The notes below the pieces were generated by a model. That model was not told the DNA's origin. It saw only the letters and a program-made list of their open reading frames with translations, and made no database searches. A stretch of DNA of 64,000 bases from Suillus spraguei (Eukaryota > Basidiomycota > Agaricomycetes > Boletales > Suillaceae): assembly GCA_016800925.1 (NCBI GenBank), contig JABCPU010000257.1, positions 1 to 64,000 on the forward strand, written 5' to 3'. A program made the translations under genes and the position numbers. Shown here in pieces: positions 3,881 through 45,207 of the stretch (its first letter is position 1; each line of letters begins with the position of its first letter).

Positions 3881-3934
3881 CAATCATTTGACGGAAATAA
3901 AATATTTTACATCATGTATGAAATGAAGACCATT

Positions 3935-7900: not shown

Positions 7901-8310
7901 TGGTGGCAGATGATGCATCTCCTGTCTTCTGGTGGAGCTTCTCGATCCAGGAGGTGATGCAGATATGATTCCTGCCTTGGCAGCCATTGCCTGAGGTAGT
8001 CATTTTGACTCTGCATTTTTTATATTGAGCTATAGTTTGAATGACACTCCAACATTTAACATGAACTTGCCATGGTTTTTGGGAGTTGCAATGGCTCAAA
8101 TGAGCCTTGGTCTTGCTCGTATGTATTGTCAGGAAAGTCATCCCAAGGAGGTGGTGCCTGAACAGGCTGAAGTGTTGGTGATTCTGGGGGAGAGTGAGGC
8201 ATGGACCTGTAGGCTCGTCGTCTCGTGCTTGCAAGTGGGACCTTGACCCAAATCTTTCTACCTTTGCTGCCCCTTGCTTCTACCCTGTGGGATTTTTGCA
8301 ATGGGTGCAT
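4910..8310 (-). pseudogene. KDZ (Kyakuja-Dileera-Zisupton) transposase with CxC2 domain, disrupted
   Basis: A KDZ-superfamily DNA transposase. The N-terminus (8310 downward) is basic and rich in Arg and Pro. A CxC2-like cysteine cluster lies near 7900-7750 (CIIC...CQDC...CTGCC...H..H). The catalytic region includes a FxxGERQMNMDY segment, a YDINCEY block, GLWHVHGHQDSC and DGEIMETLWARLN (about 6.75-6.4 kb). A basic C-terminal part (EAQIALLIEVRR at ~5.95 kb, ANDALHNL at ~5.58 kb) follows. Two introns use GC-AG borders (8011-8070 and 6699-6751). Frames break repeatedly: a long A run at 7025-7028, a small deletion with stops near 6350, and shifts near 5.9, 5.8 and 5.65 kb. Family identity is secure; the exact 3' end and activity are not, and this copy looks dead. 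Confidence 0.85.
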
Positions 8311-8415
8311 CTACCTATCTTCATCTTATTTTCTAATGCTAATTTTGCAAGCAAAGCATCTGCTCAGGTGGAATGAATTTTTATTACATTGTGGTGTCAT
8401 ACTGTCCTGCCGACT

Positions 8416-8545
8416 CATTACAAATTTACATATATGGGTGGGCCGAGGTGAGAGAATATTACATATATGGGTGGGCCGACATGGGGGAATTTTATATAGA
8501 CGGGTGGGCCGAGGTAAAATATATTACATATACAGGTGGGCCTAG
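8416..8545. repeat. GGGTGGGCC minisatellite, block 2
   Basis: Four copies of an ATATGGGTGGGCCGA or AGACGGGTGGGCCGA unit, the same family as at 45-425. The copies here are closer together and less diverged. The block sits just beyond the 5' end of the KDZ pseudogene. Confidence 0.7.
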
Positions 8546-8699
8546 ATATGTATCATAAAGATGTACAGCTGATGTAGCCACCAGATAATCAAACACATAG
8601 GATACATGCACCCTATGAGTGCATATACCTACCATCGACCACCAAAATCTAAACCCTGAAGCACCAAAACCTGAATTCATCATGTCTGACATTCATCGA

Positions 8700-9938
8700 T
8701 AATTGAGGTGCCGGGTGCCAGGTGCCAAGTCCCGAATCCAGGAACTCGAAACTGGAGATTCAAACTAGAGATTTCCTGAATTCCGGATACCCGGACACCC
8801 GAAACATAACACACAAGGTGAAAGATTTAAAGTCCATGTGTGGAGTCATCTAGTGCTGAGTGCTGGGTGCAGGTGCAGAGTACCGAAACTAGAAACTAGA
8901 AACTCAAGATTCAAGACAAAACAGACATCTACCAAAAATGTGTGGATCAAAGTTTTGTTGTTGCCTGACGTGTGTCTGAGTCCTGAGGACTGAACCCCAA
9001 AATTGTAGACTACCGGATTTCAGGATTCAGGGTTTGGCACTCGAGATTTGAGATTTGAGATGAAAAAGATATCTACCAAAAATGTGTGGATCAAAGTCAT
9101 TTTATTGCCTAACAAGTGCAAAAGCCCGAGTACCAAACCGCGAACCCCTAAATAGTAGACTACCAGATTTCGGAGTTTGGAGTTTGGCACTTAGAATGTG
9201 TGGATCAATAGGTGTCTATTGCCTCACATTGTTCTGAGTCCCGAGTCGCGAGTGCTGGGTGCCGGGGTTCAGGGTTCAGCACTGACAATATGTTGCTCAA
9301 GATCTTTCACATTATGAGTACCAAGTCCCGAGTCCCAAGTGCCGGGTGCCGGAGTTTGGGGTTCGGCACATGAAAATGTGGATCGAGGTCTTTCACATTG
9401 TTTTGAGTGCCGAATACCGATCCCCGAGTGCCAGATGCCAGAGTTCGGGGTTCGGCACTCAACATGAGTAAATCAAGATCATTGTATTGCCTCACATTGT
9501 GCTAACTCCCGGGTGCCAGAGTTTGGGGTTCGGCACTCAACGTGAGTAAATCAAGATCATTGTATTGCCTCACATAGTTTTAACTCGCAGGTGGCGGGGT
9601 TCGGGGTTCAGTGTTAAAATATGTGGATTGATATCATTCACATTGTTATGAGTACCAAGTCCCAAGTCCCGATTGCCGGGTGCCAGAGTTCGGGGTTCGG
9701 CACATAAAATATGTGGATCGAGGTCTTTCACATTGTTTTGAGTCCCGAATAACGATCCCCGAGTGCCGGGTTACCATGTGAGGCAATACAAAGATATTGA
9801 TTTACACATGTTGAGTGCCAAACCCCGAGCTCCGGCACCTGGCAGTTAGCACAATGTGAGGCAATACCATGATATTGATTTACACAAGTTGAGTGCCGAA
9901 CCCCGAGCTCCGGCACCTGGCAGTTAGCACAATGTACA
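8700..9938. repeat. Degenerate GTGCCGGGTGCCGG/TTCGGGGTTCGG repeat field
   Basis: The same repeat vocabulary as 2560-3880, mostly in the opposite orientation: TGAGTCCCGAGT, GTGCCGGGTGCC and GGGGTTCGGCAC recur every ~100-120 bp with GTGGATC(A/G)A and TTTCACATTGTT spacers. Together the two fields look like long inverted flanks around the KDZ region. Confidence 0.7.
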
Positions 9939-13608: not shown

Positions 13609-13926
13609 CTCATTAGGGGCTGGAAGGAGTGGTGGCACCATCAAAAGGCATGGTCAAGTTGTCAGGAACAGGTTGATACCTATGACAAGCTACTCCATCA
13701 AGCACCAATACCAGGTTGGAAGTTACCAGCAGGCTGGAAGTGTCCTCCCCCACCCTCAGGAAAAATATTCTGATAAATTTTTCTTAGATTGATTATATTT
13801 TGGCTATCAAAGAATCTGAACTTTGTCATTTGAAAAATCATATGTTATTTGTTTCAAAAGCTGCTATGATCATTAGGATGGAGAGATGGGGGGACAGAAG
13901 AGCATGGGGAGGGGAGAATGAAGGCA

Positions 13927-14290
<364 letters not shown>

Positions 14291-14532
14291 CTTGCATGAT
14301 TTTGTTGTGTGACAACTTAATACTGTTGCCCCCTATTAAAACTTGACACAAAAGATTTATTAAGTTAATAGTTTGCAGTAAATAATTTAAAAAAAATCAA
14401 AATCACATGCAATGACATGAGGATGAAATGGGCAATATAAACTCACAAAGATGGTGATGTGGTACTTTTACTTCTGTCAAAATATTGGTCAAAGTTATAA
14501 TTTATTTCAAAACCTATTATCATTATTGAAGA

Positions 14533-15029: not shown

Positions 15030-15316
15030 AAGATCTCGAAGCACGCAACCGTGTTTTTGGTACCTTTCCAACCATCGACGAACTTTTGGACCCTGCTGAA
15101 GAGAGAGATAAGGGAGAATTCTCTGCCTATGAAGGTGATGACTCATCCATTGCAGATGAGGTCCGTCATGAAATTGCTGTTGTAAATGGTGAAGTTATTG
15201 AAGTTGATTCTGATTCTGATGACGACGACGACAATGAAGTGGGCCCATCAGTCACACGCAACGATGTCCCTGATTTGTGCCAGCAGCTCGAAGTTGCGGC
15301 CTGGCTGGCATCATGG
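15030..15316 (+). pseudogene. Pogo-like DDE transposase C-terminus, 5' fragment
   Basis: The plus frame reads ARNRVFGTFPTIDELLDPAEE and later GEVIEVDSDSDDDDD...VPDLCQQLE, typical of the C-terminal tail of basidiomycete pogo-like (Tc1/mariner, CENP-B HTH/DDE) transposases. The frame then runs into the hAT element at 15317. Similarity appears to resume after it at 15739-15800 (MQYGDP...FSLDLSH with one in-frame stop). The upstream catalytic domain is missing, so this is a relic. Confidence 0.6.
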
Positions 15317-15738
15317 TAGTGTTGTGGGCAGAAGTCCGCCATTCTGCCAGCCGGTTTGGCAGAACCGGTTCTGCCTGGCAGATGGCAGAAGTCCGCTGGC
15401 AGAATCCGGCAGAATGTCAATTACACAATGCCTCCAGCCGGGAATGAATGCTGATTGATGGATTGAATGAAGTGTTGGAAGGTTAAGTTTAATGATTTTG
15501 CGGAGTTGGAGCATGTTGACCGAGGTCTTCTACCGAAATCTGTTGATGACAAGATTATGGTAGTTGATCACAGCTCACAAGACAACGAATAGTGGATTGT
15601 GGATGCGCTGATGCTGTTCTGACAGTATTTCTTAGCGATAATCACCATACATTGTCATATATATAGCCTTGTAGCGCTTTGAGAATTATGCTAATTCTGC
15701 CACTTCTGCCGGTTGTGCCGGCACTGCCCCCAGCACTA
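15317..15738. mobile_element. 422-bp non-autonomous hAT element (MITE-like)
   Basis: Left terminus TAGTGTTGTGGGCAG and right terminus CTGCCCCCAGCACTA form imperfect 15-bp TIRs. The first 104 bp differ at only one position from the left end of the large hAT element at 31,165, and the right ~300 bp match that element's transposase 3' end, so this is an internal-deletion derivative. The left subterminal 100 bp hold about nine GGCAGA/TCTGCC motifs, probably transposase-binding sites. CTGGCAT(C/G) occurs on both sides but 4 bp off on the left, so the 8-bp TSD is imperfect. Confidence 0.8.
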
Positions 15739-15800
15739 CTGGCATGTATGCAATATGGTGATCCTTAATTTTCACTTGATCTATCTCACAACTTCGAAAG

Positions 15801-26719: not shown

Positions 26720-28577
26720 TACTAGAATCGATTAATTCTTTGGACCCGGCACTGGTAGCCGTCCACAAACGAACACTCTTTCTTTTCCTTGGCCTCTTCT
26801 CCATCGTGACCCACCACTGTATTCCTGGAACTCTCATCTCCTCGCACATTTATCATCATCAAACCACATATGCCCTTGTATCCCTGACCATTTCCTCTCC
26901 TCTTTTCACCCTTCTTTCTTTTTCCCTTTCTTTTTCATAAATCAAGACATCTCTATGACTGCGGAGATACCAAGTAATTTACGATCGGGAGTTAATGTGT
27001 TTAAGACTTTGTATCTACTATGCGTGTATCAGAACGATCAATATACCCTGCGTGTTTGTGCCCCTGAGTTTTCATGACGGCGATAGAATCGCCACTTCTT
27101 CTACATGTAAAAATCCAGGCTCATTGGAATTAATTATAATGGACTTGGTGCAGCTTCGTGCCCATTGCAGTGACACGATCATATTACTTTACCGTTTATC
27201 TGGCTAATGGTTATGGGCGCTTTGCTGCCAGCTTGACATTGACAAGTACACCGTGACGTCGCGATTGGTCCCCAGATTCGGATCGTTACGGAACCTTCCG
27301 GGCCACCTTCATCGTGAGCAACCAACTTGACGAGAACAACACCGTCTATGTTTCCATTTTCACTTGAATATCCTCTCGAATTTTTGTGCGGCTGCCCCAG
27401 TATAACTTGATTCCAACGGTCTGAATGATCACTGATCTGCTTTCCGCCTGCAATCTAGTCAGTGCCTGGTGGGTCAAAAGTCAATTGTGTGATAACGCCT
27501 TACAACTCTACTACTTGCTTGTTTCATCCAAAGCCCGCACATTCATAAAGAACGCTGTTCATATTTCCAGTGAAGCCTATCTTTTGGCGGTTTTGGGTTG
27601 ATTTCCTTAAGCTATGGCTATGAACCCTGGACGTCTAGATGATCACTAACCAAGGTGAAATCTGCTTGCCTCCAAGGCTAGCAGATTTCAACCTTGCTTA
27701 GAATAATTTACCAGTGTTCATCATGCGGCCAACGATCTTGTTTCTTTTTGCATTCCTATCTTACGATGCGATCCGTACTACAAGCTTGGGCATTACTACG
27801 GCTGGGCTCGCACAACCTGACATTATTCAGAAACACTCTTGACACCGGTACCATATATCCTGCGCTTCTCTCCAGGAACAATCCGAAACGCCATCCGCAT
27901 CCCTGCTCATTGTCAAACTTGGTACTAGAGAGCACGACGCTGATATCGGATCATGTCTTCGAAGATTTGTTGGGTCTAGACGGGTTTTAATTTGTAGCTA
28001 CTGGAGTACTCGGCCGCCGTCAAACGTCAGTGTTTTGCAAGTCCGCACTGTCAAAATCTAAAGTGATGTCTAGAACTTCCACATAGAAGAATTCAGATGG
28101 CCAAAATACGAACTTTTCAACTCCGTGACTGTTCAGGTCTGTGGTTTGGAAAGCATTTTAGGTTGCGCTGCGAGACGATTTGGACACTCCGACTTTTCAG
28201 GGTTTGAATCAAACTTGCTGTGGAAATTCAGCCACTATCAATCAACTATTTTGCTTGCTTTCTCATAATGGTTGGTTCCTCTTCATCTCAATTTTGGCGC
28301 GATGCTTCGGCTGTGCACGAAGTCACGTGGTATCGAATATAGAAGTGGACCACCTAATGTACTATTAATAATTATACTTTAGGCGCCATTGGAGGGATCC
28401 AGGAACTTAAACTTGCAGAAACCGTTCAACCGTATCATCACGGAATGACTCGGGAGCTGGAAATCGTCACGTCGTTGCTCAACTCTAAATTTTTAGAAAT
28501 TGAGCAGCCCCAAATTTTTTCACATGTGGCCGCGTATATATGAGGTTCCCCCATCTCAATAATTCTTCAGACGTATT
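26720..28577. other. Long intergenic region
   Basis: About 1.86 kb with only short ORFs (for example 27694-27990, 98 codons) that show no domain, no plausible intron structure and no conserved-looking patches. Presumed 3' UTR of the clp1-like gene, then the promoter of the 7TM gene. Confidence 0.45.
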
Positions 28578-29843
28578 ATGTCGTCCACAGGCCCCACCCT
28601 TAATCAGACGGAAGGTAAGTATGGGTGCCCGACTTACTGTGTCGCTGTGCTTATCCTTTTTTCTAGTCGCGGACATAAGCCTCACAATTGTGGCTGTCCT
28701 TGTCACATCCTTCCGCTTGTGTATTCGTGTGCGGCAGAAGCGTCTGGGGATCGATGATGCATGGGTGGCCCTCGCCATGGTATTCGACTTTCTACTATTG
28801 ATATCCGATTGCTTGTATCTGCAAGACTATGGTGAGCGTCTCCGCAGTGTGTATGTAGTATACATCTCACTGAAGAAATGCAGCAAAATATCCTCAAAAC
28901 ACAAGGGTAGCGTTATACTACATGTGCGCTCTCTTTTTTTCTTATACCTGACAGACGTTAAAAATACCACATCAGGATTGCTCAATTCTTTTATGGAGTT
29001 GTATGGTGAGGCACTAGCAGTACTGAGTGCTAGTGGCATGGAAACGAACTGACATGCGCACATAGGTCATCGAAGTTATCCATGTTATTTACCATTGTGC
29101 GGCTCACAATCCCGGGAACCTTTAGGAGAGTCCTTATGTGCGCTGTCGGTTTCTTCGGCTTCATATGGGCTCTACTCTTTTCACAAGTGTGGTGGATTTG
29201 TGAAACCCAGCCCGGCTGGAAATTAGAATCACATCCGCAGTGCGATCTCGGCAGACGTATTGCAATAACGCAAATGATCAGTGAGGATTCGTTCTTCATA
29301 AAATATATTGGTCTTCTGATGTATTTTAGCCGATGTCCTGGCGGACTTTTTTCTCATTATTGCTCCATTCTTCCTCATTTACAAAGTCAGGTTGTCAAAG
29401 ACGCAAAAAGTCCGGATATTATCTGTCTTCTCTACGTCTGCAATCACCACCATCGTCAGTCTCACCCATGCATATTACATCTTCGCTGGTGGAGGGCTCA
29501 AGGAGGTTATGGCTGCTATAGTCGAGGTTCGGTGCCAGTGTTTAGACCTCGAGCGCAGCTGATCGTGTTTTAGGCTTCTATGTCTCTTATCGTCGCAAAC
29601 CTGAGCGTCGTCGTCGCATTCATCTTCCGTCTAAGTTCAGAAGACGATTCACCATCCCATCCGACGCCCATCGTAACTTTTGGCGCACACCATAGGACAC
29701 GCGTGGCCGTAGCTGTTGAAAGCACCACGATCGTACTGCAGGATCTCGCTGAGAATCGACACCGTTCCATGAAGACAAGTGACGACGATGACGTTACTTT
29801 ACACAACAGGGAGCGAAAGCAGGAGAAAGAATGGTGTCGCTAA
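28578..29843 (+). CDS. Rhodopsin-like fungal 7TM integral membrane protein
   Basis: Multi-exon gene: 28578-28614, 28667-28831, 28884-28923, an exon ending TGGAGTTGTATG before a GTGAGG donor at ~29006, then ~29065-29281, a segment starting CCGATGTCCTG at ~29330, and a last exon from ~29574 to the TAA at 29843. Hydrophobic helices include ISLTIVAVLVTSFRLCIRV, AWVALAMVFDFLLLISDCLYL, ALYYMIAQFFYGVVW, SKLSMLFTIVRL, CAVGFFGFIWALLFSQVWWI, DVLADFFLIIAPFFLIYKVRL and SVFSTSAITTIVSLTHAYYIFAG. The W..SKLSMLFTIVRL and LADFFLI..P...IYKVRL blocks match the basidiomycete rhodopsin-domain/SAT4-related membrane proteins, of unknown ligand. The C-terminal ~80 residues are soluble and acidic/basic mixed. Confidence 0.78.
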
Positions 29844-31156
29844 AAAGTGATTCGTCCTCGACTCCTACGGGGTCTTTGTAGAATGGACATCTTTAATTTC
29901 TTCCACTCTTCCCTGCAACTTGCCTGGCATCTTGCATTTTATCGATCGTTCACGGTCGTTCTTGTTGTTCGTGTTTATACCGTGCAACTTTATACCCTTA
30001 ATTTCCAATCCAAGGACCACACCCGCATAATATCGATGATATCCGCACTATTTATATTAGTGGTTCTCAAAGTTAACTTCGTATAGAAATTTCAAACGTT
30101 GAGCATTTTGGAATTTGCCGGTTAATTGAGGCTCCGACGCTGACACATCAACCCTAACCTTATACTCAGACCGTCATCATCTACTGCGACACCATCTTTC
30201 AATATCATTATGCCTCGGGAATCCGATCGTTCAGGCTCCTTCGCAGCCTCAAACAAACTAGTCATGACCTTACTATCGCGCGATACATGGAGTTAGTTGA
30301 GTTTATGGTAGATGAACTACTAGTAGATGAGGAGGAGGACTCATCAGAGATCAGCGACACTGCCAGTGGTCATGGTCTGATATCAGCATACAGACAGCAT
30401 CACCAGCATGGCCTGAATCCCCTACCTCATCGGTCACATCTGCCTCGTCATCAATTCGCTTGTATCACTCTCAACAGCATACTCGAGCGTCCTATCACAC
30501 GATATCCCAGACATGTGTGAACGAGTTTTTCATGATACAGGGTGTTCTTAACACAGCGATTAATCGATGGAGTTGCCAATCGCCAATGACAACGACAGCA
30601 GGCATACGGATTCGAAAGCTGCTAGCATCGAATTCGCATTTTCTAGAATTTTTTCTATTTGACTTAATCATGTGCAATTAAACGATTCAATGCAAACTTG
30701 AAATTCTGCTCGTCCACCATCTTCGTTCAAGCGGACAGGAATCGGTGCCATTTTTGTGGCACTTGGTCTAAATTATTTCGCGAGATAGTTTGGCATCATA
30801 GTAATAATAACCCAAACGACGTGGCTGGAAATGTTTGGTCGTGAAATATGCGCACTACTGGAGGAAGGCACTGTATTTGTTCAAACTTGAAGTGGACACA
30901 TGTTGTCGTGTGTACTAGATTGCAGTTGTAAATTAAATTCCGCGATCTGGGTCATACGGGGAATTACTCGTGCAAAAAGGAGCCGGGGGCTTGGTATGTG
31001 TTCGGAGACGTGCATATGTATATTATGCCAGCCGATTCTGAGTACCTTAAATTTCGCTCGTCATTAGTATTTCAATATTGACTCTCTAGCGGGCTCTTGC
31101 TCTGGAGTCCCATTAGTCAGGTGTAGATTAGCATCCGGGGTCGGCAACACAGTCAC
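29844..31156. other. Intergenic DNA next to the hAT insertion
   Basis: About 1.3 kb with short ORFs (29847-30086, 30287-30520, 30460-30681). The frame around 30190-30400 reads plausibly (an acidic ELLVDEEEDSSE stretch) but has no recognised domain or clear gene structure. It could be a small unrecognised gene. Confidence 0.35.
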
Positions 31157-31164
31157 GGTGCAGC
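31157..31164. repeat. hAT target-site duplication, left copy
   Basis: GGTGCAGC, directly before the terminus TAGTGTTGTGGGCAG. An identical 8-mer follows the right terminus at 41048-41055. Eight base pairs is the hAT superfamily's duplication length. Confidence 0.85.
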
Positions 31165-31539
31165 TAGTGTTGTGGGCAGAAGTCTGCCATTCTGCCAGCC
31201 GGTTTGGCAGAACCGGTTCTGCCTGGCAGATGGCAGAAGTCCGCTGGCAGAATCCGGCAGAATGTCAAACTGCAGGTGATCACTGCGAACGATATCTTGA
31301 TAACTTCCTCACTTTATATAGCCATAGTAACAAGCTTTTTCCATCAATTCAGAGCAATTGCACTTCCTTACTTGTAGAGTAGAAAAAAATCAGTTGTACA
31401 GCCTGTACTACGTTATCACAGACAATCGTTTATGCGATTACACAATACCTCCTGCCACTGCAGTTACCGGACGCCCTATCTCATCCTTTATAACTGACAA
31501 TTTCAATCGTGGCGAGAAGGTCGATAACAAATCTAGACG

Positions 31540-31910
31540 CTATTTTGCGTGGGCACCACCACTCGTACCTCAGACTCAGTCGATGATGATCTTGCAGGTC
31601 CTGAATCGATATCACTTGATGAGATTGACACAGCATTTGCCCTGCTGGAACACGAAAAAGATGCGACGGAATGAGTACTGATTGACGGATTGGATGAAGT
31701 GTTGGAAGGTCAAGTTTACGATTTTGCGGAATTAGAGCATGTTGACCAAGGTCTTCTACCGAATTCCGTCAATGACGAGATCATGGTAGTTGATCACAGC
31801 TCACAAGACGACGGACAGTGGGATGTGTCTTCTGATGATGTTTCTTAGCGACGATTACCATACACTGTCATATACATAACCTTTAGCGCTTTGAGAATTT
31901 TGCCAGAAGT
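31540..31910 (+). pseudogene. hAT transposase 3'-end fragment, first copy
   Basis: The sequence from ~31,540 (FAWAPPL-type codons) to GCTTTGAGAATTTTGCC (~31,905) is closely similar to 35,225-35,605. It carries a TGA near 31674 and a small deletion/frame change near 31,580-31,590. No right TIR follows, unlike the 422-bp element at 15317. Confidence 0.7.
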
Positions 31911-32060
31911 CCGCAGGGCACTGCGTCTTAATAGTTTCAGTTGTTTGTTGCAGTACGTAAATAAAGAAATTTCTTTCTACTAAACTCACCCCCATCAGTC
32001 ATCTCATACAGTCCAAGACTCGCTCCACAAACGGTACCAAATAAGCCTCAAGATAATGCA

Positions 32061-33771
32061 TCATGATGTCGCAAAATTCATAGATGACATATCGGACATC
32101 GTGATATGCACTGGGTCGCCAGAGTCATATGCATATGCACGTTGGTTCGTCTGCCAGAGATGGAGGTGCATGCGGGTAGCGAGGATCGCAAGGATCACGA
32201 TCTCGAAACTGTATGTGGGTGTAAATTCGGGTATTTTTAGTAGCGATACGCAACAGGATGTGGAGGTACATACACATACAACATGTTACGGTAGGAGGAG
32301 TACTAGGGCATGGAACATCAATGGCTCGATTATACAAGGTATTTGAGAGATTCACGCACCTCAAGGAACACTGATGTGAATATGTTTACCACTGAGAGTA
32401 CTTCAGGAAAGAGAATGACTATGCATGAGTACGGAAAACGGCGCGTAGAGTGGTGACTTACGAAGACCGCATGCATAATAGAATATGTTATGTTTCACCA
32501 AGACAACATACAAATGGCTTGAGCTCAACCGCCAGCTCTGTATGGCGCGCATGAGCGTGAGTATCATGAGTCCTGTGAAAGGATCTATCTGCGTGTGCTT
32601 GTACGGGTGTATGCTCCTGGCCACCCACCCAGTTCGAACACAGCAAGGAGAATAAATGTTACGAAGAACCCCGAATGGGTCGGATTCTGGTAGCAGTCTG
32701 TGACGCCCGGGATAAGACTAGTCGCATCTGTGAAAGTGAACGGAATGTTTCAGTGGTTGTGGAACGTCAGAGGGAAGGTAAGAGCAAGTACATGCTGCGG
32801 GGCCGATATAGGTGATGGAAGTGATGAGGGATACCACGAGAAAAGCCTGGCTGATGCATCTACCACTCGCTTTAGTGTAGTGAGTGAATTGGGAACTCAC
32901 GAAAGAGGTGGACAACATGGCGCGAGCGAAATTATACTCTTGTTCCAGAGTACATATGTTCTGAGTACGAAAAAAACTGAATGAATGAGATCAGACACAC
33001 ACATTTTATGGGGGAACGGGATGTACATTCAGAGAAAGAGACTAATGCTATACCAAGACCTAAAGAAAAAAGTGGTAGGCTTCAACAATGACATGCATAC
33101 ACAAATGCACCTTGCACGTACCTGATTTAAGATCAGCCAACACCCAGCATCTCTGACAAGGTCATATAGTAAGTCGTTCGTTCTTATTAAGATTCCACGA
33201 CATCACACACCTCTGGGTTCTCATCTGGGGTAAAGTGGTCTTGAAGAGAAGTGTTAATTTATCATCATGGTAATGTGTGCTGGAGCGGAACGTACGCCAT
33301 AGAACCGTGACAAGGTAGATAAAGGGGAGGTATCGTGTAACGATGTACAGGCATTTAACCTTGCTCCGGTCCGATCGAAGCAGATATGTCCACTATGCAT
33401 AAGATATTGAAGATATCAGCACTGATGTGCATTACGGAACGGGAGTATTACCTCTTCATGAAGTGAACATATATAATCATAGCACTGGATAAATGGGTGG
33501 TTTAATAGCGGAGGTAAATAGATCAGGATAAGCCTACCCAGAATGTAGCTATCGACACTGAACTGTGTTGAGGTAAAGAATGAGGAGTTCAGACAGTACA
33601 CACCATACATGTACTAATGGAGTGTGAATTGTGAGTACCATTCCGAGCCCTCACATCGACAAGGAAACACACCGCACAGAACTGCAAGCTCCTCGCTGCT
33701 GCGATATTGTCAGACGAGTCCTCCACTGTATACTGTAACTGTGTCAGCGAATGCTGACGTGACTCGAACAT
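32061..33771 (-). CDS. DUF6533-type 7TM membrane protein inside the hAT element
   Basis: An intron-rich minus-strand gene. In order: N-terminus YTVEDSSDNIAAARSLQ (33771 downward); YDYICSLHEEW (split by an intron at the last E/W); LLRSDRSKVKCLYIVTRYLPFIYLV; HFTPDENPEVCDVV; GLGIALVSFSEC; FFVLRTYVLWNKS; ATSLIPGVTDCYQNP..GFFVTFILLAVFELG; GLMILTLMRAIQSWRLSSSHLYVVLVKHNIFYYACGL; LLSVVNIFTSVFLE; FEIVILAILATRMHLHLWQTN and a Ser/Met tail to TGA at 32061. The YDY..L..EW and LRTYALW-type motifs are those of the DUF6533 family common in Agaricomycetes, function unknown. I found no stop inside the exons traced, though not every junction was fixed. It reads opposite to the transposase. Confidence 0.72.
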
Positions 33772-34389
33772 ATGTGGATGACACCCAAGGGCACCAGAAG
33801 GAGGAGTGGGAGCACGGGCGAGCGAATGTGTCAGCTATATTTCTTCTTGACAGGTACAAGTGATCTTATCGTCAAATCCTATCGCCACCTGCTGATCCCA
33901 TCAAGGAGAACGAGGGAGGCGGGGCAATGGCAGAGTAAACGGAGGTGAACTACCGAATATCCATATGGAGCATTCAACCCCCCGCAGAATAGTGATTTAT
34001 AAGCACAGGAAGCGGCAACGTATGTAGGATATATCCTTGGATACATCCCGTTGGACAATGGATAACGACAGAATAGTATGTATCGGACTTTTAGGACTAT
34101 AGTCCACTTAAGATATATCTATACAACAGTATGGGCTGGATGATGAGCGCGAGGGACTGATGGCATATGCTAAGCGTCAAGCTTCTTTATGTCAAAGGCT
34201 TGCTGAGTCCGTTGGACCTCCGACCGACACATTGGCACTAGCGGACACATTCAACCACTCACTCATCACTCAGCAAGATATGGACATTGATTGATTAGCA
34301 CCCATAGTACATGTATATACAACAAGATCCAATATAAATTTGTGCACTGCCTCATTCAAAGAAGAGATACTACTAGTATCTGTATACGA

Positions 34390-34720
34390 AGGTAGGAGGG
34401 TGCGCAGGTGGGCAGGATGCATCACCCAGCGCCAATGAGATGCATCAACACAGGAGGGGGGCTGATGCATTGCCTTTGGTATTTGATGCATCAAGAGGGG
34501 GGCTGATGCATCAACCTTTGGGTATTGTAATGCATCGAGTACCTTTGGGTATTGTGATGCACAATACCCAGAGGTTGATGCATCACAGTACCAAAGGTAT
34601 TCAATGCATCACAGTGCATCAGTACAGGAGAGAGCTGATGCATTGGTGAGGAGGGAGCAGGTGCAGTACAGTTGCAGCAATGATGCATCACAGCTGTACT
34701 ACAGTTACCCTGTTCGATGC
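34390..34720. repeat. GATGCATC palindromic satellite
   Basis: About fifteen GATGCATC, ATGCATTG or TGATGCAT copies at ~20-45 bp spacing, with ACCTTTGGGTATT in both orientations. A perfect inverted repeat GGGTATTGTG/CACAATACCC with a 3-nt centre lies near 34544-34570. The array is on the 3'-transposase side of the DUF6533 gene. Confidence 0.75.
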
Positions 34721-34978
34721 CATCAGTATGCCACGAACCTGTGTTCCAAGGTAGCTTCATGTTTCAAGTGACAGTGATGTATCATGTCAAACTTCGAGCT
34801 TAAGAAGTTTTTATTACGGCACTACCTCACAGCTCATCTAATGGATAACTTTCCGTAGGCAAAATAATCCAGAATAGAATATACCGGAGTCTCAAAAATA
34901 TTACCAATACCGCTGATATGTTAGAAATAATCCCCCGTACGCTCATTCAATCAAATTTAGTCTGCAATCACCCTTTTA

Positions 34979-35536
34979 TCCATTGTTCCTCACACCGTTG
35001 ATGTCGAATACCTCTTCTCGGACATGGGTAGCACTCAGTCTCCGAAGCGTTGCAATCTCTCGGTAGACACATTCGAAGCACTGGCAAAGATTCGAGCGAA
35101 TCTTCGTTACCATACTCAGTGGAAGGCCGTGGCTAACAGAAAGCCAACTCGTTGACATCATGCGCACGTGCATACTGGTGCCCAGCCGGGCATTAATGTT
35201 GATGTAGCTGCTGATCTAGAAGCCAATTTTGCGTGGGCACCACCACTCGCACCTCAGACTCAGAATGTCGATGACGATCTTGCAGGTCCTGAATCGATAT
35301 CACTTGATGAGATTGACACAGCACTTGCCCTTCTGGAACACGAAAAAGATGCGACGGAACGAGTACTGATTGACAGGTTGGATGAAGTGTTGGAAGGTCA
35401 AGTTTACGGTTTTGCGAAGTTGGAGCATGTTGACCAAGGTCTTCTACCAAAATCCGTTGATGACGAGATCATGGTAGTTGATCAAAGCTCACAAGACAAT
35501 GGACAGTGGGATATGGACACGCTGATGTCCTTCTGA
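34979..35536 (+). pseudogene. hAT transposase C-terminus (dimerisation domain), second copy
   Basis: The plus frame reads IVPHTVDVEYLFSDMGSTQSPKRCNLS and FEALAKIRANLRYHTQWKA, the hAT C-terminal dimerisation domain as found in fungal hAT transposases. A TGA at 35153-35155 interrupts the frame; the reading then continues to an acidic C-terminal tail ending at 35536. The start is abrupt: no RNase-H-like catalytic part was found upstream. Confidence 0.8.
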
Positions 35537-35618
35537 TGGTGTTTCTTAGCGATGATTACCATACATTGTCATATACATAGCCTTGTAGCGCTTTGAGAAT
35601 TCTGCCGGCACAATTAGA

Positions 35619-35900
35619 TTTTCAAAGGAAACTAGAACCGAGGTCTCAGCATCGTGATAAGAACAACTGATATTAAAAGTACCTAGAACTGAGGTCTAGT
35701 GGTACAGTGACATGAGCTAAGGACGGCGTGCAAGAAACAAAGATACATACCTCAGCGTCGTGATAAGAACAACTGAGGTATGAACGGGGCGAAGCGCGAG
35801 GATTATAAGGCGTACATACGTATAGAGTCCGAGAACAAAAATAGAAAGTTAACTATGACGAACAAAGTGACGAGCGAGATGACGACGTTGAATGCCAACA
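35619..35900 (-). repeat. Copia 3' LTR
   Basis: A 282-bp LTR, on the minus strand starting TGTTGG at 35900. It differs from the other LTR at three positions by eye, about 98.9% identity. TTAGA (35614-35618) precedes it and TTAGA (41017-41021) follows the other LTR: a 5-bp target duplication. Confidence 0.93.
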
Positions 35901-35910
35901 CACCCCCTTC
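35901..35910 (-). other. Copia polypurine tract
   Basis: The minus strand reads GAAGGGGGTG immediately before the 3' LTR start. This is the expected position and composition for the plus-strand DNA primer. Confidence 0.8.
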
Positions 35911-38900
35911 AACGTGTAACGAGCGACAGTCCGGAACGATGATGAGTGAATGTGGGACGGGGAAGAGCCTTTGTGAAGATATCTGCTGTGTTCTTGTGCG
36001 TGGAGACCCATACGGGTATGAAAGTGCCTTCTTCGATGTGACGACGGATGAAGTGGTAACGAAGGTCGATATGTTTCGTGCGGATGTGATTCGCGGCCTC
36101 CTTAGAGAGAGCAATGGTGCCTGCATTGTCAGCGAAGAGTTGCAGAGGAACAGAGAAGGAGAACTGAAGACATTCGAAGAGGGACTTAAGCCAAATGCCA
36201 TCCTGAATTGCCGCTGTAAGCGCCATGTATTCTGCTTCGCACGAGGACAACGCCTGAGTCGTTTGCTTCTTCGCCGAGTGTGATATGGGACCTCCGTTCA
36301 AGAACCAGACGTAACCCGAGATCGAGATACGGTCCTCAGGACATGATGCCCAATCGGAGTCTGAGAATCCGTGCAATGCTGGATTGATGCCTGGGCCACC
36401 GTAGTGGGTGCGCATTGTGATTGTTCCTGCGAGGTAGCGAAAAACATGTTTAGTGGCGGAGTAGTGCTTCGGCTCGGGAGACGAGTTGTATTGGGAGAGT
36501 CACATGATGGTGAGCGCGATATCGGGGCGGGTGTACATGGCCAGGTACAGAAGTTCGCCGATGAGCTTACGATATTCGGTAGGGAGGTCATCAATGTGAG
36601 GAAAGACATCAGTAGGACGCCCGAACGGAAAGTTCGGATCCATTGGAAGAGCGACGGGGTTGCAATTAGTCATACCGTGCTCATCCAGCAGATGAAGAAT
36701 GTAATCCTCTTGATGCATCCACAGTTCGCGTGTTTGACGATCCCTGATGAACTGGATCCCTAAGTATTTCGTCACGGCCCTGAGATCGGTGATGCCAAAG
36801 TGCTCGGCAATCTGACCCTTAGTCTGGTCGAGGAACACACGATTGTTAGATCCTGCCAGGCCATCGTCGACGTGCCACGCAATGATGCAGATGACGCGTA
36901 CCCCCTGTGCATTGATGTGATCGAATATGAACACCGCGTAGTCCGCCTCGCAACGTAAGAAACCGAGACGTGTCAGAACATCACGTAGGAGCTCGTACCA
37001 GTCATAAGCGGCTTGCTTGAGACCATAGAGGGAGGATAGAAGGTGCGCGACAAGGCTTGATCCGTCAGGCCCGAGATGCTCGAATCCAGGAGGTTGACGC
37101 ATATAAACATCCTCCTGCAGTTTACCCCAGAGGAATGCATGTTTTGCGTCAAAACAATCGAGCTCCCAGTCATGTGCCGCGGCATAAGCAGACAGGACCC
37201 GAATGGATGCGGATTTTGCAACAGGTGCAAAAGTCCGGCTGAAGTCAACACCCAGAATCTGCGAAAACCCCTGTGCTACCAGCCTAGCCTTAAACACAGG
37301 TCCTCCCTTGAGATCCTCTTTGAACTCCAAGACCCAGCGGCACCCAATAGCACGTCGATCCGCTGGAAGACTTACGAGTTCATACACATTCATCTCCGAC
37401 ATGAGATTCATTTCCTTCCGCATCGCTGCTAGCCAGTGATCGCTGTCAGGCCGTTGTGTCGCTTCGTCGTAGGTCGCTGGTGGGATACGGAGATCATATC
37501 CGGAGGCGAGGGGATTGCGACGGGTATCGCTGCGGACAGAAAGTGCGGCTACTTCGACTATGATCAGGTTCGCGATGACATGGGGGAAACCTACTTCATC
37601 ATCATCCGGAACGATCTCGTCCGGATCGATGACAGTGGGAGCAGGGAGTTCTGGCATGGGCGTCGGAGTAGGAACTATGGGAGGCTCGGAGGTGGTAGTG
37701 TCAGTCGATGACGGAGGTACGCCATTGACATGGGCTGCACGTAGTTCACGCTGACGGGTGGGGCATGCCTTGTCAGCAGCAAGACGACCTTTGAACAGCT
37801 GACCCTTTTCAGTAGGGACAGGAATGCGTCCAGAACGGCGGATAATTGCGACGTGGGGAGGCTCAGATGGCGTGCTAGGTGTGGATGGAGTGGATGGTGG
37901 GGCTACGGTAGAGTCGTCATCGTCATCACTGTCTGGGAAGGGATGATCAGTGAAGTTTTCGTCGAAGATCACGTCCCTAGAGTTAAAGAATGCCCCTGTA
38001 ACAGCATCACGACACCTCCATGCTTTTACCCCTGGTGGATACCCCATGAATACAGCCTCGCGCGAACGTGGTCCAAGCTTCAACTGGAGTTCAGTGGGAA
38101 TCCGGGCGAAACAGCGTGCACCGAATATGCGAAGATGCGCGAGATTTGGCTGAGTGCCATGAAGCATCTCATATGGTGTTTTCCCGGCTGGCAGAGCACG
38201 AGATTCGGTCCTATTGAACAGGTAACACGCCGTTAGAGCGGCCTCACCCCAGAGTCCAGGAGGGAGGCGGGCGAAATCCAGCATCGCATACATACAACCT
38301 TCGATCGTACGCATCACCCTCTCTGCTTTCCCGTTCTGCTGATGAGCATAGGGTGCAGAGCGTTGATGCTGGATACCCGCCTCCTCCAACTGAAGCGTGA
38401 AAGCATCGCTAAGAAACTCCCCCCGTTATCACTGCGGAAGACCTTCACGCGTAATCCTGACATATTTTCCCACCTAGCACGTAGAGTCCGCCATGCATCC
38501 AAAGCCTGATCTTTGGATGCCAAGAGTTGCAGATCCAGGGCGTGAGAATGGTTGTCGAGGAAGACAATGAAATAACGTTTGCCGTGAGGCGTCACTGTTG
38601 GTATTGGCCCGCAGACGTCACTATGGATGAGGTCGAGGAAGGATGCTGTGCGTTCAGTTTCGGAGGAGTGAAATGGCTGATGTGGATGTTTTGCGAGAAT
38701 GCAAGACTCGCAGTGTGACAAGGGAGCAGATGACTGAATGGTGATGCCCTTCGCAATGCGATTGAGGCGACTTACGGCCTCCTTGCCAATGTGACCAACG
38801 CGCGCATGCCACAAGTCGAGTGTGAGAGGAACATCAGCAAATGCAGACAACTCTGGCAGGGCGATCTGGCAGGAAGCGTGGGTGCGTAAGGAACGAATTC

Positions 38901-40324
38901 AATGTTGGGTGCATAGAGTTTGCCTGTCGCAGGAATGGAACCAAGCAAATTCCCTTGATACGCAAGTTCGCAAGTCATGTTGGAACGAAAATTGACATCC
39001 CACCCCTTTGTGTTCATACAACTGACAGACAGAAGATTCAGCAAGGCACTGGGCGCGTGAAGACAATTAGAGAGACGGATACGAAGACGTTGATTTCCAA
39101 TCTCCAGCCATGCAACACATGTACCACGACCCGTGGTCTGTAGAACACCGTGGTTGGCCGTGAGCACGTCCACGGGATCCTCAGTTGAGTAGGAGTGGAA
39201 GTAGCGTCTGTCTTTGACGAGTGTGACGGTCGTGCCCGAATCGAGAATCGTCGTGAAGGGGAGATTGACTGCACATGCAATGTTGTCTGGAATTTCTGCA
39301 ATGGACGCGAACGATAAGTCATACATCAGGCTATTAAGATCCGTCGCTGCTGCCGCGATGATAGGCACAGGTGGTGCCGTCGTTGTGGTCGTCGTCGTTG
39401 CAGCAGCAGCAACCGCAGGTGCGTCTGCCTCCTTCTTGTTACGCATCCAAGGTGCTTGGCCCTCCATACCACCCCCTTTTTATAGCAATGGGCATGGTCG
39501 TGGTCGCCTTTATTACACCCTGCTGTCGTACAGAAGATACCCTCAGGATTGTGCTTGTGCTTGCGTAAGCCGGTGATGGAGTTCACATTCGACTTCGAAC
39601 TGTTGGATGACGTCGCAGCATTTGCATATTCTGACCCAGGACATGTGGCATGAATGGCTTGGGCGTGTACATGACGGGCTGCTTCAGCAGTGATGTGAGA
39701 GACGCAGCTCTCAACAGTGAATGTGGAAGGATGCGCTGCTGTCGCGGTCATAATCTCGTCATGCATGCGTTGTTCAAGCATGGATTTGAACTGTTGCCAA
39801 ATGGGCGTCTGAGGTAAGCCAATGAGCAAGCTATAGATGGCGTCACTATCTCTGAGAGGAGCGCCTGAATCATGAAGTCGTTCATGCAGAACCGCATGCT
39901 GTCCAACATAGTTGGTAGCATCGGCCGAGTCCTTCATACGAAGAGCATCGAGTCGTTGACGAAGTTGGTACTGAGCGCTTGTATCAGTCCGATTGAAGTG
40001 TTCGGCTAGCGTTTGCCATGCTTTACGCGCTGAAACAGTGTGAGAACGTGAGACGAGGGAACCAACTGATGGACTGAGGCAGCGGGTGATAAGGTCCTTG
40101 GCCTTCATATCAGTGAGTAGCCATTCACGCATGGTCGTACGCTCAGCAGCTGTGATATTGGCTAGATCGACAGGTACAGGTATGAAAGATGGTGTCCCGA
40201 GGAGGTCTGCTGGATCGACGATCATATTGACATGGCACCACAGATCCTTGCATGCCAATGCGTACTGCATCTTGGTAGCCCAGCCAACATAGTTCTCGGA
40301 GCCCACATCAGGAAATTCACACAT
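35909..40324 (-). pseudogene. Copia gag-pol, three disruptions
   Basis: Gag starts at ATG 40324 (GSENYVGWATKMQYAL) and ends in a C-X4-C-X4-H-X4-C knuckle near 39.5 kb. Protease has DSGTT near 39.23 kb. The pre-integrase zinc region has LWHARVGH and CESCILAKH (~38.8-38.7 kb), and integrase continues through HSDVCGP and RSDNGG into ENxx-type HQQNGKAERV (~38.35 kb). Reverse transcriptase shows FKARLVAQGF, DAKHAFLWG and the WHVDDGL form of the YVDD box (~36.88 kb). RNase H has GFSDSDWAS (~36.37 kb), SSCEAEYMAL and KHIDLRYHFIR. Breaks: one base short at five C (39472-39476), one base short at six C (38419-38424), and an in-frame TGA at 36500-36502. Both shifts are at homopolymers, so the copy may be less damaged than it looks. 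Confidence 0.9.
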
Positions 40325-40578
40325 TCCTTAACATGCTTAATCAGCTTAACTCACTTATCTCAAAACTTGTTTGCTCTCTCTCACATCATTCACCTGGCAT
40401 ATCTTATATTTTTTGAGTGCGAAATACAATAAAACATGTATATTAATATATCTCAACTTTTTTTTTCTGAATTCATTCACATTGAAATTTTGGACAAGTA
40501 GATTCAATTTCACCAAGGCAGTTAAGTGTAAATAAGTCCGCATAAGGGCACGTCAAGGAATGTGTGAATTTCCTGATG
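40306..40578 (-). repeat. 24-bp inverted repeat spanning the copia gag start
   Basis: 40306-40329 and 40555-40578 are perfect inverted copies (24 of 24). The first arm contains the gag ATG (40322-40324). In the retroelement RNA the two arms could pair across a ~225-nt loop and cover the start codon. Confidence 0.85.
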
Positions 40579-40720
40579 CAGAAGTTCGGGAATGTGGTCG
40601 TACTTCCCCATGACAATGCCGTCATGTAGAAGAGTCTGAAGACGAGTGAAAGTAAATGAGCTGCGCGCGAGCGTGAGGGAAGTTCGATCTATATGTTTCG
40701 TTTGATGGCTCAATTCGAGC

Positions 40721-40734
40721 CAGGGCTCATAACC
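40721..40734 (-). other. Copia primer-binding site for a half initiator tRNA-Met
   Basis: The plus strand reads CAGGGCTCATAACC, abutting the 5' LTR at 40735. It equals the anticodon stem-loop of yeast-type initiator tRNA-Met (CAU anticodon), so the minus-strand RNA is complementary to that internal part. Copia-type elements are known to prime from a cleaved tRNAiMet 5' half. Confidence 0.85.
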
Positions 40735-41016
40735 TTTTGAAAGGAAACTAGAACCGAGGTCTCAGCATCGTGATAAGAACAACTGATATTAAAAGTACCT
40801 AGAACCGAGGTCTAGTGGTACAGTGACATGAGCTAAGGACGGCGTGCAAGAAACAAAGATACATACCTCAGCGTCGTGATAAGAACAACTGAGGTATGAA
40901 CGGGGCGAAGCGCGAGGATTATAAGGCGTACATACATATAGAGTCCGAGAACAAAAATAGAAAGTTAACTATGACGAACAAAGTGACGAGCGAGATGACG
41001 ACGTTGAATGCCAACA
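40735..41016 (-). repeat. Copia 5' LTR
   Basis: 282 bp; on the minus strand it runs from TGTTGG (41016) to the base before the primer site. It should hold the element's promoter. Three differences from the 3' LTR: position 5, one T/C near 40804 and one G/A near 40936. Confidence 0.93.
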
Positions 41017-41047
41017 TTAGACGCAAATAGTTCTGCCCACAGCACTA

Positions 41048-41055
41048 GGTGCAGC
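41048..41055. repeat. hAT target-site duplication, right copy
   Basis: GGTGCAGC, identical to 31157-31164, directly after the right TIR CTGCCCACAGCACTA. Confidence 0.85.
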
Positions 41056-41290
41056 ATGCTTAAATCTTCACCTATCAAGTATTTATCTTGATTTATCTTC
41101 GCCCTCTTGCGGTCTACCGAAACGTATCACGTGACAACTGAAAATTCTCTTGATGACAAAAAAGAATTGCATACGCACTTGCAAAGAAAATAGCGACGAA
41201 CTAGTTTCCGACTGCTTCGAATTCATCTGGCCAGCTATTTTCGGTGTCTTCCTTCGCTACAATCACTCATAGAGGCTAGAACGGTCTTAA

Positions 41291-42431
41291 ATGACTTGGC
41301 CACTGATCGACTTGCGGACCACATCGTATGGGGGACGTTCTCTCTTTGCTATCCAGCCCATTGCCCGAGGGACCAACATCTTTGCATGTGAAGCTCCTTT
41401 TGCGCATGTGATTTACAAAGATTATCGCAGGGAGGTCTGTGCTCAGTGTTTTGCTTATGCGGCAAGTATTTCTCGAAGTGTTGACGATCCACGGACTTGG
41501 AGTATCAACAGTTGCAGGGCAACTGCAGAAACCGTTTGGTTCTGTACAAATGAATGCAAAGTCACATGGGAAAGCGGGGTGATAGGTCCCATGATAGCAG
41601 ATGTGAATGCTCTTCTTGGCAAAGCAAAGATAACCACCGGAGGAATCCAGCCAGGGACGGCTACGATCCGATATTGCCCAATGGTCCCACTGTACAAATC
41701 ACGCAGGACTACATCGACAAAGCATGGGCGGATGTCGAGGATTTGGTTTCCTCTCATGCTCGTCTTTCTGCGTACTGCTCCACGATGAACTTAGAAGATA
41801 TGGAATTCGAAATATCGCGCTCAGTTGCGTCAGCCATTGTCCAGCTATATGTATTTGATCACCATCTCGCCAATCTCGCAGTTTTTTCCATAATATCCGC
41901 CTCGGATACATGGGCAGAGGTTCTTGATCTCCAGAGCAGCGAGTTCTCGAACGTTAGTTTGCGGTCTTATATCCTCGCGGCGCATCTACGCGTATACGCT
42001 TTCCTGTGTTATTCGCTTCCAAAGCATCTCAAATCGTACGTTCATACGGCCCGACATATTTTGCACGCGACACAGGGAATACTTTCGGCATTTGGGATGG
42101 AGATAGCAGAGATGAAATGCTCGGATGGGGCCTTTGGGTGGGCGCGAGTTATTTTAATCACAGTAAGAACCTACTTTTCTCAAGTCTTCTTACTCAACGT
42201 GTCGGCCAATGAAGGTTGTTGCCCAAACGTCAAAAAGACACGTGTCGGACGTACCATGCACTTCACCACCTCTCGCTCAGTCGAAGTGGCGAGGAGCTCT
42301 GCATTAGCTATATCGATACCGATCAAACTATTACGCAGCGCAGACAGGATCTAGAAGACAGCTGGTTCTTCAAATGCCGGTGCCAACGTTGTCAATCAGA
42401 AGAACTTGGTGCTGAGGCATCTCCGCATTGA
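41291..42431 (+). pseudogene. SET-domain (SMYD/Set6-like) protein, frame disrupted
   Basis: A split SET protein. The N-terminal part reads GGRSLFAIQPIARGTNIFACEAPFAHVI, then a MYND-like cysteine region CAQCFAYA...CRATAETVWFCTNECK. After a helical insert come TGNTFGIWD, DEMLGWGLWVGASYFNHS, and past a GTAAGA intron (~42161-42213) CCPNVKKTRVGR, then GEELCISYIDTD and the post-SET-like CRCQRCQSEELG. Those are the SET NHSC and ELxISY motifs of protein lysine methyltransferases. Frames change near 41654 (GGG), ~42035 and ~42293, each as if one base were missing; no acceptable intron explains the first. It may be an intact gene with sequence errors or a recent pseudogene. It begins 235 bp from the hAT right end. 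Confidence 0.72.
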
Positions 42432-43235
42432 TGTGCCTTTTTATACAGACGCAGCCGAGTTTTAGATATTGGTGGTTGTGTGCGTATATGCTTCTGACTG
42501 AACTGATTTCATGCTGTTGAGCAGATCCATTAGTATACCGTATGACTGCGACTAGATGTTCATGCGACTAGCGGCATTCTCGTACCGGTTCGGTCCCAGG
42601 GTTCGGCACAAAAATCAAAGATGATACCTACATAAAACCCTCAGACGACATGCCCAAAGTCGTGTAACGTACCTTTGCGGCCCTTTGCCCAGATTGATAC
42701 TTTTGGAACCTTCCATTCTGGTAGCACAGCGCTCGAAGCTGCAATCTTGCCCTTTCCAGGCCAAGTTCTCTCCCTCGCCGCTACTAAGTCTCTAAGCTTG
42801 AGCGTGTCTGGTGTAAATCAGCAAATTCATGCAACATTACCCTGAAGTTATCTGACCGTCTCATTTGTATCTCTGTAATTCATTTTTAGATTGTTTTTAT
42901 AACTATTATATGTAATTGTATCATAGATTCCTCATAAGTTTCCAGGAGCACTTGGTATATTCTTTCATGTGGATAGAGCAGAATTTATTTTGTTGCACTT
43001 ACTGTTCCACTGTTGTGAATCAGTCCTTCGGAAAATAAAATTCGTTGGGAGTAATTACCATGGTTGTACAGTATACATATGCATAATCTAAACTTCTATA
43101 GACAATCTTAAAGAAGTATAAGCGCTCGTCATAAACATGTAAAAATAGTTTCCACTCGTGCCCTTTTGGACTTGCGTAGGCCCAGAGCACCAGTACTGGC
43201 AGACTGAGCCAAGCAAGCTTTATTCCACTGAACTC
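42432..43235. other. Intergenic DNA
   Basis: About 800 bp, AT-rich over its second half, without supported ORFs. It contains the promoter of the DUF3712-like gene. An in-frame upstream ATG exists at 43158 but 43236 gives a more typical N-terminus. Confidence 0.45.
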
Positions 43236-45207
43236 ATGGCACTTGCAGAAAACGACAGTTCTACTTCATGCATCAAGGGAAAGGGAAAGGCCAGGCATCC
43301 TGAACCTTCAGAACAAACACCCTTGCTACCACATCACAGTGATGTTGCTCCCAGTCAACCACATGCTACAGATGATGAAGAGGTCGACCTTGAAAGCAGC
43401 TCCGATGTTCGGCGAAGGCTTTGGTCCCAGCTTGCATTTGTTTTCCTGGCATCTCTGTCTTCCTGCATCTTAATATTTCTGCTTTTTGCTTTGCTGGCAT
43501 ACTCTTATGCCGCCAGGTTGTCGGATGTGTCTCCAGAAGACGTCTTAGAGAATGCGCTGGTGATACAAGGACCGTATCGGGTGAGCGTACTCAATGTTAC
43601 AGCAGACGGCGGGACATGGATACAAGTACAAGCAAAAGTTGGAATTGATGCGGGATCAATCATGGGAGTCGATACGGATGGTGACGAGGGAACATTCAAC
43701 GACATGTGGAAGTCGTTTGGTCGATGGGGCGTCAAGATTCTGGATAGAGTTACAGTGGATATCTCTACCACTCAAATCTTCTCTCAGCGACAGGCACTCT
43801 TAGCCACGCTCGATTCCCCACCATTTGAACTTCCTCTCACCGTTAATCCCCCATATGATGATTCGTGGTTATCCCCATTGTCTTTAACTCTGTTTGTCAT
43901 CCCCACCAAAAACGCGTCTGATATGAACCAGTTCGTGCACGACTCCTGGCAATCTGGTGCTGCGTTTGTACATGCCTCTATTCCTAGCGTGGTGGTCTCT
44001 GGGGGCTCGACGAACAAAGCCGGTTGGAGGAAAATGTTAAAGCTCCAAAGATCAAGTATAGAAACTCAATTGTCCATGAAGCGTGAGTCTTTTTATTATC
44101 TGCGAATTTGCTAAGAGTGCTATAGCAATACCGACAGTTCCACCGATCCCTGGCTTGCCCACCCCAGGCAAGGATGTACCACTACCATCTATTTCGCAGC
44201 TGATTACGCTGCAGTCTTTTGGCGTGGAGTCTAAAGCTAAAGACGTGATTGTGCATGCCCTTGCAACTGCCATCAATCCTGTACCACCTATAATGAACCT
44301 GACTGTACCCTCACTTCCGTTTATAATTTCGCTCCCTGGCGAAAATCATTCATCAATACCGTTAGCATCGGTGCACACCGACCCATTTACGCTGACCCAC
44401 CCCAACATCACGCTCACTATCTCTGGAAGCATTCTCCCCCTCCCTATTCACCCTTCCGCATCCATTTCTGCATTCATCAGTAGATACCTCTCCCTCAAAT
44501 CTAACCCCGTATCCGTCGCATGTCCACTATTCCCATCTTTTGCGGTGGACATGGAATTTCCCGGCTCCCAGTACCAAACCACAGGTACTCCGCAATGTAA
44601 CAATTCACGACATGAAGATCAAACCCAACCCTGCCAGCACCGGTTTTCTGGCTAGCGGTTCGGTGTTCGCCCGCATAGTGCTGCCTAAAGGAATGGACCT
44701 TACACTGAATGTTACCCGCGTATTTCCTGATGTTCTGGTCTTCGACGGGGAAGTTCATGAATTGCCTCCACTTCTCTTGTCCCAACAGAAAGACGAAGAA
44801 TCGCCAGATCCACTTCCAAAACGTGCATTTGGTCGTATACGACCTGACGATTGGTTGGACGCGACGAGCATTCAAGTCGGCAGCGAAGGGGAAGGTTCCA
44901 TATTTGCAGTCACTGCAGATTTTGTCAATGTCCCGTTGGAGGTGCTTCCTGGTAGGCAGCAACAATTCAGCAATTTCATCAGCAAGGTATATTTAGCACT
45001 GTCTTTTGCGTAACCTTTCTCATGTAGGATTGGTTGCAGGTTGTATTTGGCACCCACGGTGCATTGGCTGGCTTGCAGGGAACTACTGATGTTGGAGTGC
45101 ACATCCTCGGATTACCATCCGGTGATCACGAGAATACAGCCATGGACCTCTTAGATCTGCCCCTCCAAGGGAGCGTGCGCATTGGAATGAAAGATCTGTT
45201 TATATGA
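43236..45207 (+). CDS. DUF3712-like single-pass membrane protein
   Basis: Exons 43236-44082, 44126-44986 and 45040-45207. A polar N-terminus with EQTPLL precedes one transmembrane helix, QLAFVFLASLSSCILIFLLF (about residue 75-97), then a large outside/lumenal domain of beta-sandwich-like repeats: RVSVLNVTADGGTWIQVQAKVGID, RVTVDISTT, NITLTISGSILPLP, VDMEFPAPSTKPQVLRNVTIHDMKI, LDLTLNVTRVFPDVLVFDGEVHELPP and a final GTHGALAGLQGTTDVGVHILGLPSG. This fits the fungal DUF3712 family (Tag1-like vacuolar or membrane-bound lumenal proteins). Exons sum to one base over a multiple of three; the extra base seems to be in CCC at 44560-44562. Many N-x-S/T sites fit glycosylation. Confidence 0.72.

Follow-up and report, generated by a model that had tools for sequence, protein, structure and literature searches.

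A probable hAT macrotransposition of a DUF6533 gene in Suillus spraguei, with its right end housed in a Harbinger-type element

A DUF6533 (7TM-type) gene of Suillus spraguei was probably moved by hAT macrotransposition, in which the outer ends of two different hAT copies acted jointly. The gene lies in the window, the 64-kb stretch of DNA analysed here (C433:1-64000, from an assembly of 86.2 Mb in 1256 contigs), between a left element, hAT-A, and a right element, hAT-B (Table 1). The outer ends come from two different sources: hAT-A shares an internal deletion with the copies on contigs C670 and C291, and hAT-B shares a junction with chimeras of hAT and a second transposon, X. Joint action of two outer ends had been proposed in an earlier note on this DNA and is the best-supported reading, with the right end cut out of X. 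The right partner was there taken to be a neighbouring hAT copy; it is instead a hAT end that lies inside an element of the Harbinger type.

Table 1. Features of the hAT-bounded unit, with positions in the window
Feature	Position	Strand	Basis
Left target site duplication GGTGCAGC	31157..31164	no strand	sequence read
hAT-A, non-autonomous hAT deletion derivative, left terminus TAGTGTTGTGGGCAGAA	31165..31906	+	comparison with relatives
DUF6533 (7TM-type) gene segment of full extent, with introns	31907..33757	-	DNA homology, paralogue alignment, profile match
Flanking DNA carried along with the gene	33758..34841	no strand	few matches elsewhere
X left end (TIR side), PIF/Harbinger-type; AAT precedes	34842..34964	+	sequence comparison
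hAT-B, 3' part of hAT element, 5'-truncated	34963..35618	+	sequence comparison
Ty1/copia element, inserted in hAT-B	35619..41016	-	LTRs 35619-35900 and 40735-41016
274-bp inverted-repeat element inside the Ty1/copia insertion	40305..40578	no strand	sequence comparison
hAT-B right terminus (CGCAAATAGTTCTGCCCACAGCACTA)	41022..41047	+	sequence comparison
Right target site duplication GGTGCAGC	41048..41055	no strand	sequence read

As the earlier note had described, a perfect 8-bp duplication, GGTGCAGC, bounds positions 31165-41047. The left hAT terminus, TAGTGTTGTGGGCAGAA, begins at 31165 and the right terminus, TTCTGCCCACAGCACTA, finishes at 41047; these short terminal inverted repeats are common to a multi-copy hAT-like family, and 47 stretches matching the left hAT region are listed in the assembly, the window's own among them. 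GGTGCAGC occurs four times on the + strand of the window, two of these being the duplication at the outer hAT ends, and two fixed places would agree exactly over 8 bp with a chance of about 1.5e-5 by our own arithmetic. Family copies elsewhere also carry exact 8-bp duplications (CACATATT at C1024, TGTGCCGG at C960); the flanks of the C670 and C291 copies have only CACGTG in common and no exact 8-bp duplication. Together, the 8-bp duplication and the shared terminal inverted repeats place the element at 31165-41047 in the hAT superfamily. One duplication encloses the whole unit and none surrounds either hAT separately, the inner termini being absent. The ends do lie about 9.9 kb apart, as previously stated, but this is not the length that moved: a 5.4-kb Ty1/copia element sits inside, and without it the hAT unit measures about 4.48 kb.

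Two hAT 3' pieces are present in the interior, as had been noticed, at 31531-31906 (hAT-A) and 34963-35606 (hAT-B), and they differ by about 7% over the ungapped part. The internal deletion junction that hAT-A has in common with C670 and C291 lies near 31542. In those two copies the sequence extends about 60 bp further and finishes in a right terminus, whereas hAT-A is without these last ~60 bp, terminus included, and meets the gene segment at 31906-31914. Because hAT-A is without its right end and hAT-B is without its left end, only the outer pair is usable. A C-terminal transposase remnant in hAT-B (34961-35155) matches PF05699, the C-terminal dimerisation region, only below the cut-off (E 0.11); the 273-aa frame of a related hAT copy matched no Pfam model, and some relatives are named HAT C-terminal dimerisation. 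A second short hAT derivative of the same family as hAT-A, about 420 bp long and with no exact 8-bp duplication, lies at 15316-15739 in the window and matches the hAT-A left end at 99% over its initial 104 bases.

On its inner side, hAT-B adjoins the left end of X, the two being fused through a TG microhomology. PF13359 (DDE_Tnp_4) is present in many relatives of the X reading frame, while the frame itself matches only a weak HTH_23. Three-base duplications (ATT, AAT or ACT) were seen by eye at 9/9 loci with both X ends in view, C346 included, where counting one locus (L054) means accepting a one-base deletion in its terminus and several loci are same-flank pairs. The DDE_Tnp_4 relatives, and the 3-bp duplication with terminal inverted repeats, identify X as a PIF/Harbinger-type element. 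Uninterrupted copies read TTTAGTCTG-GTCCTTGATGGACGATAAC-TTTGCAGTCC, and a search of the assembly for the X pattern returned 73 places: 67 X-like by eye, 5 X-hAT chimeras and 1 unrelated.

Outside the window, the X-hAT chimera exists at three loci on five contigs, including two allelic pairs: C346/C904 (97-99% over most of 9 kb), C374/C1051 (97.8% over 407 bp), and C614. In these chimeras, the middle of X is swapped for a hAT 3' part that ends CAGCACTA and is followed directly by TTTGCAG. The layout at C346 is X 1-132, hAT, X 152-261 and X 634-1094, and since both X termini are present with AAT on each side (by eye), this chimera moved as an X element. The window, C374, C904, C346 and C614 have the X|hAT junction at 34963 in common, with 92-95% identity over 34850-35606; other hAT copies match hAT-B over shorter stretches (C369, 94% over 491 bp; C291, C670, C476 and C430, 92%).

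The right end of the unit records where X was interrupted. Its exact 24-mer occurs at six places, and all five outside the window run on into X at X position 152. In the window, X stops at the same hAT terminus, and what comes next is GGTGCAGC and then unrelated sequence; a search of the 64-kb window with X did not find the right part of X, the only match being of 14 bases (E 0.72). Because X resumes after the hAT terminus in 5/5 other cases and not here, the right end appears to have been released from X at that point. X cut at the hAT terminus, combined with a duplication whose other copy borders the left end of a different hAT, is the trace expected of macrotransposition. The sequence thus favours a cut at the hAT terminus by which the cargo, made up of the X left end, the gene and 1.1 kb of its flank, travelled along with the hAT-A left end. 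The split in X reveals which terminus was cut, information that is seldom available for old events.

The cargo had been described as a complete multi-exon DUF6533 gene. Its presence between the hAT pieces, its introns and its full extent stand, whereas its intactness does not. Two DUF6533 exons joined score 41.3 bits against PF20151, above the cut-off of 24.1; a single exon alone scored below it. Aligned by eye with 11 paralogues, the window copy differs from all of them in having GTG in place of ATG at the start and a 1-nt deletion at 32921/32922. On this alignment, the 7TM copy is full-length but disabled, by loss of the start codon and a frameshift. Among 120 listed of 549 protein matches, obtained with an approximate exon chain as the query, no annotated protein corresponded to the window copy, which is consistent with a disabled gene; the best full-length match in that set reached 59%, in Suillus decipiens. 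The copy retains its introns, and therefore it was genomic DNA that moved.

Relatives of the gene are plentiful. Among the best 40 of 178 candidates, more than 40 stretches elsewhere match 31907-33757; identity is 70-83% for the long ones, and many of the matches in these 40 cluster on C380, C381 and C1213. The carried flank (33758-34841) matches C429 (82% over ~290 bp) and short stretches beside other 7TM paralogues. Within it, 34390-34650 contains imperfect direct and inverted repeats built on GATGCATCA. One 7TM paralogue, at C747, has a 68-bp piece of the hAT-A interior (31475-31542) some 190 bp away (L019 3433-3500).

A plausible course of events can be proposed from these parts. At the donor locus, hAT-A would have lain 3' of the DUF6533 gene with its right terminus already missing, and an X-hAT chimera, a non-autonomous Harbinger-type element with an internal hAT right end, would have inserted upstream of this gene. 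The only competent ends, that of hAT-A on the left and the one inside X on the right, could then have been paired by a hAT transposase acting in trans. Cuts at both ends would have released a segment of about 4.48 kb, which inserted at a new site and duplicated GGTGCAGC; X would have been split by the cut, its left end travelling as cargo. Afterwards, the copia element presumably entered the right end and the gene copy decayed.

An empty site and a donor locus were sought, as the earlier note had suggested, and neither is present in this assembly as far as the searches reach. Among the best 40 of 82 candidates for left flank 29600-31165, there was no empty site, the matches being to a dispersed repeat. 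The 13/13 candidates for 28000-30040 gave none either, relatives reaching at most 77% over the length and up to 89% in short stretches, and the single candidate for right flank 41055-44054 was the flank itself, so that no allelic copy of either flank was found. Since other regions do have allelic contigs (C346/C904), the lack of an empty-site allele can be read neither way. No donor was found through the gene segment (best 40 of 178 candidates), for which the best long match elsewhere is 83%, nor through the gene's upstream flank (best 40 of 118), and an orphan right half of X, which would mark a donor, was seen at 0/73 X-pattern places in the assembly. A further weak point is that GGTGCAGC resembles TTTGCAGC, the X sequence bordering the C614 hAT end, in 6/8 bases (chance ~0.4%, by our own arithmetic), with no alignment beyond.

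The weaker rival to macrotransposition is repair capture (transduplication), which we consider unlikely. Here a complete hAT-A would already have occupied the site, and a break about 60 bp from its right end would have been repaired from an X-hAT adjoining a DUF6533 gene elsewhere, with a strand invading that chimera at its hAT right end. Repair would have copied hAT-B, the X end, the flank and the gene, and the product would have been end-joined to the left break at ~31908. This requires no donor loss, and it accounts for there being one duplication only, for the end that hAT-A has lost and for the short stretch of shared sequence where the junction lies; the two broken inner ends, which count against macrotransposition, are also expected from a repair event. 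However, no donor has been located for it, and the window's right terminus equals that of X-hAT over 24 bases, to the last base. The hAT-A relatives with a placed right end read CCCCC there in 5/5 cases (C1024, C670, C291 and the window copy ending at 15739, with C392 placed by nearness only), as against CCCAC in X-hAT and the window. Conversion would consequently have to reach within 9 bases of the terminus. This argument carries moderate weight only, because CCCAC-type right ends with one or two other mismatches occur at 46 further places beyond X-hAT, most known by pattern only; one, at C469, lies 1.4 kb downstream of a hAT-A-like left piece.

Formation within a single large hAT, with the sequence captured before arrival, is very improbable. 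Captured genes are known in fungal hAT elements, as the cited part of PMC6710886 describes, yet here the 3' pieces differ by ~7% in their ungapped part and have different relatives, so that two source elements are needed. A multi-copy interior would also be expected, and no other match running from the gene into 33.9-34.8 kb was found among the best 40 of 178 candidates. Still less credible is a series of independent events in which the gene was resident first, hAT-A and X-hAT inserted on each side, and deletions followed: the region is rich in repeats and both inner ends are degraded, but the right part of X, kept at that point in 5/5 other copies, would have to be deleted exactly at the hAT terminus, and the 8-bp match would have to be due to chance (~1.5e-5 for the match alone). 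An assembly chimera has the least to recommend it, for although both edges are repetitive, the assembled sequence has an exact 8-bp duplication where the hAT element terminates and another around the copia element, and these are unexpected from misassembly.

The maize Ac/Ds elements belong to the hAT superfamily. Macrotransposons formed by them are established in maize and, as in the macrotransposition proposed here, DNA lying between two elements is moved by the ends of both, leaving an 8-bp duplication or footprint (PMC9910405). Compared with the Ac/Ds cases covered in that source, the window differs in that the family is fungal, both source elements have broken inner ends, one of the ends used lies within a Harbinger-type element, and the structure is a relic rather than an event caught in action (PMC9910405). 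Gene transport by macrotransposition had been expected to be notable in fungi; gene carriage by hAT elements as such is already known there, from ToxhAT and from captured histone H3 (PMC6737239, PMC6710886). ToxhAT, in wheat-pathogenic Dothideomycetes (PMC6737239; PMC9594970), is likewise a fungal hAT-like carrier of genes and a nested DNA transposon, but it is 14.3 kb long with 74-bp inverted repeats, its authors found no target site duplications, and the section cited does not show that it arose from the ends of two elements (PMC6737239). In histone H3 transduplication, fungal hAT elements similarly carry host sequence, but as described in the cited part of the source, an intronless transcript was captured and amplified to many copies, in contrast to the window's genomic DNA with introns, for which no second copy was found (PMC6710886).

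No fungal macrotransposon was found in the openly licensed literature, and no fungus appears in the titles of the macrotransposon papers found there. What seems new is an origin from two elements in which one of the ends sits inside a member of another superfamily; no description of this was found in the same literature. The window may hold a sequence-level record of a fungal DNA transposon gaining a whole intron-bearing host gene by pairing the ends of two defective elements, and not by transcript capture. It is also conceivable, though we put this forward tentatively and at somewhat less than even odds, that X-hAT chimeras serve as portable hAT ends, a Harbinger-type element spreading usable hAT right ends. 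If so, any upstream hAT left end could form a macrotransposon with an X-hAT right end, and gene transport would be seeded by cross-family nesting, not by two neighbouring copies of the same family, with the window as one realised case. Such gene moves should then recur, and could be searched for across Suillus genomes.

Later insertions have altered the unit. The Ty1/copia element, 5.4 kb long, is flanked by the duplication TTAGA (35614-35618 and 41017-41021), its LTRs differ at 3/282 positions, and the insertion is absent from the four related right ends aligned. The 274-bp inverted-repeat element nested in it has 100% identical copies at C346 and C380, and for this reason was probably recently mobile.

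Repeats also occur elsewhere in the window. The dispersed repeat at 30054-30665 has 47 matching stretches listed at 88-97%, the window's own (100%) included, and at C422, C672 and C758 two copies lie close together in opposite orientation. Relatives of 28570-29840, 73-77% identical, cluster on C418. Positions 2700-9900 hold repeat arrays of GAACCCCGAACTCCGGCAGC-like units, those on one side being inverted relative to those on the other, and a tandem array with a 14-bp period occupies 13845-14327.
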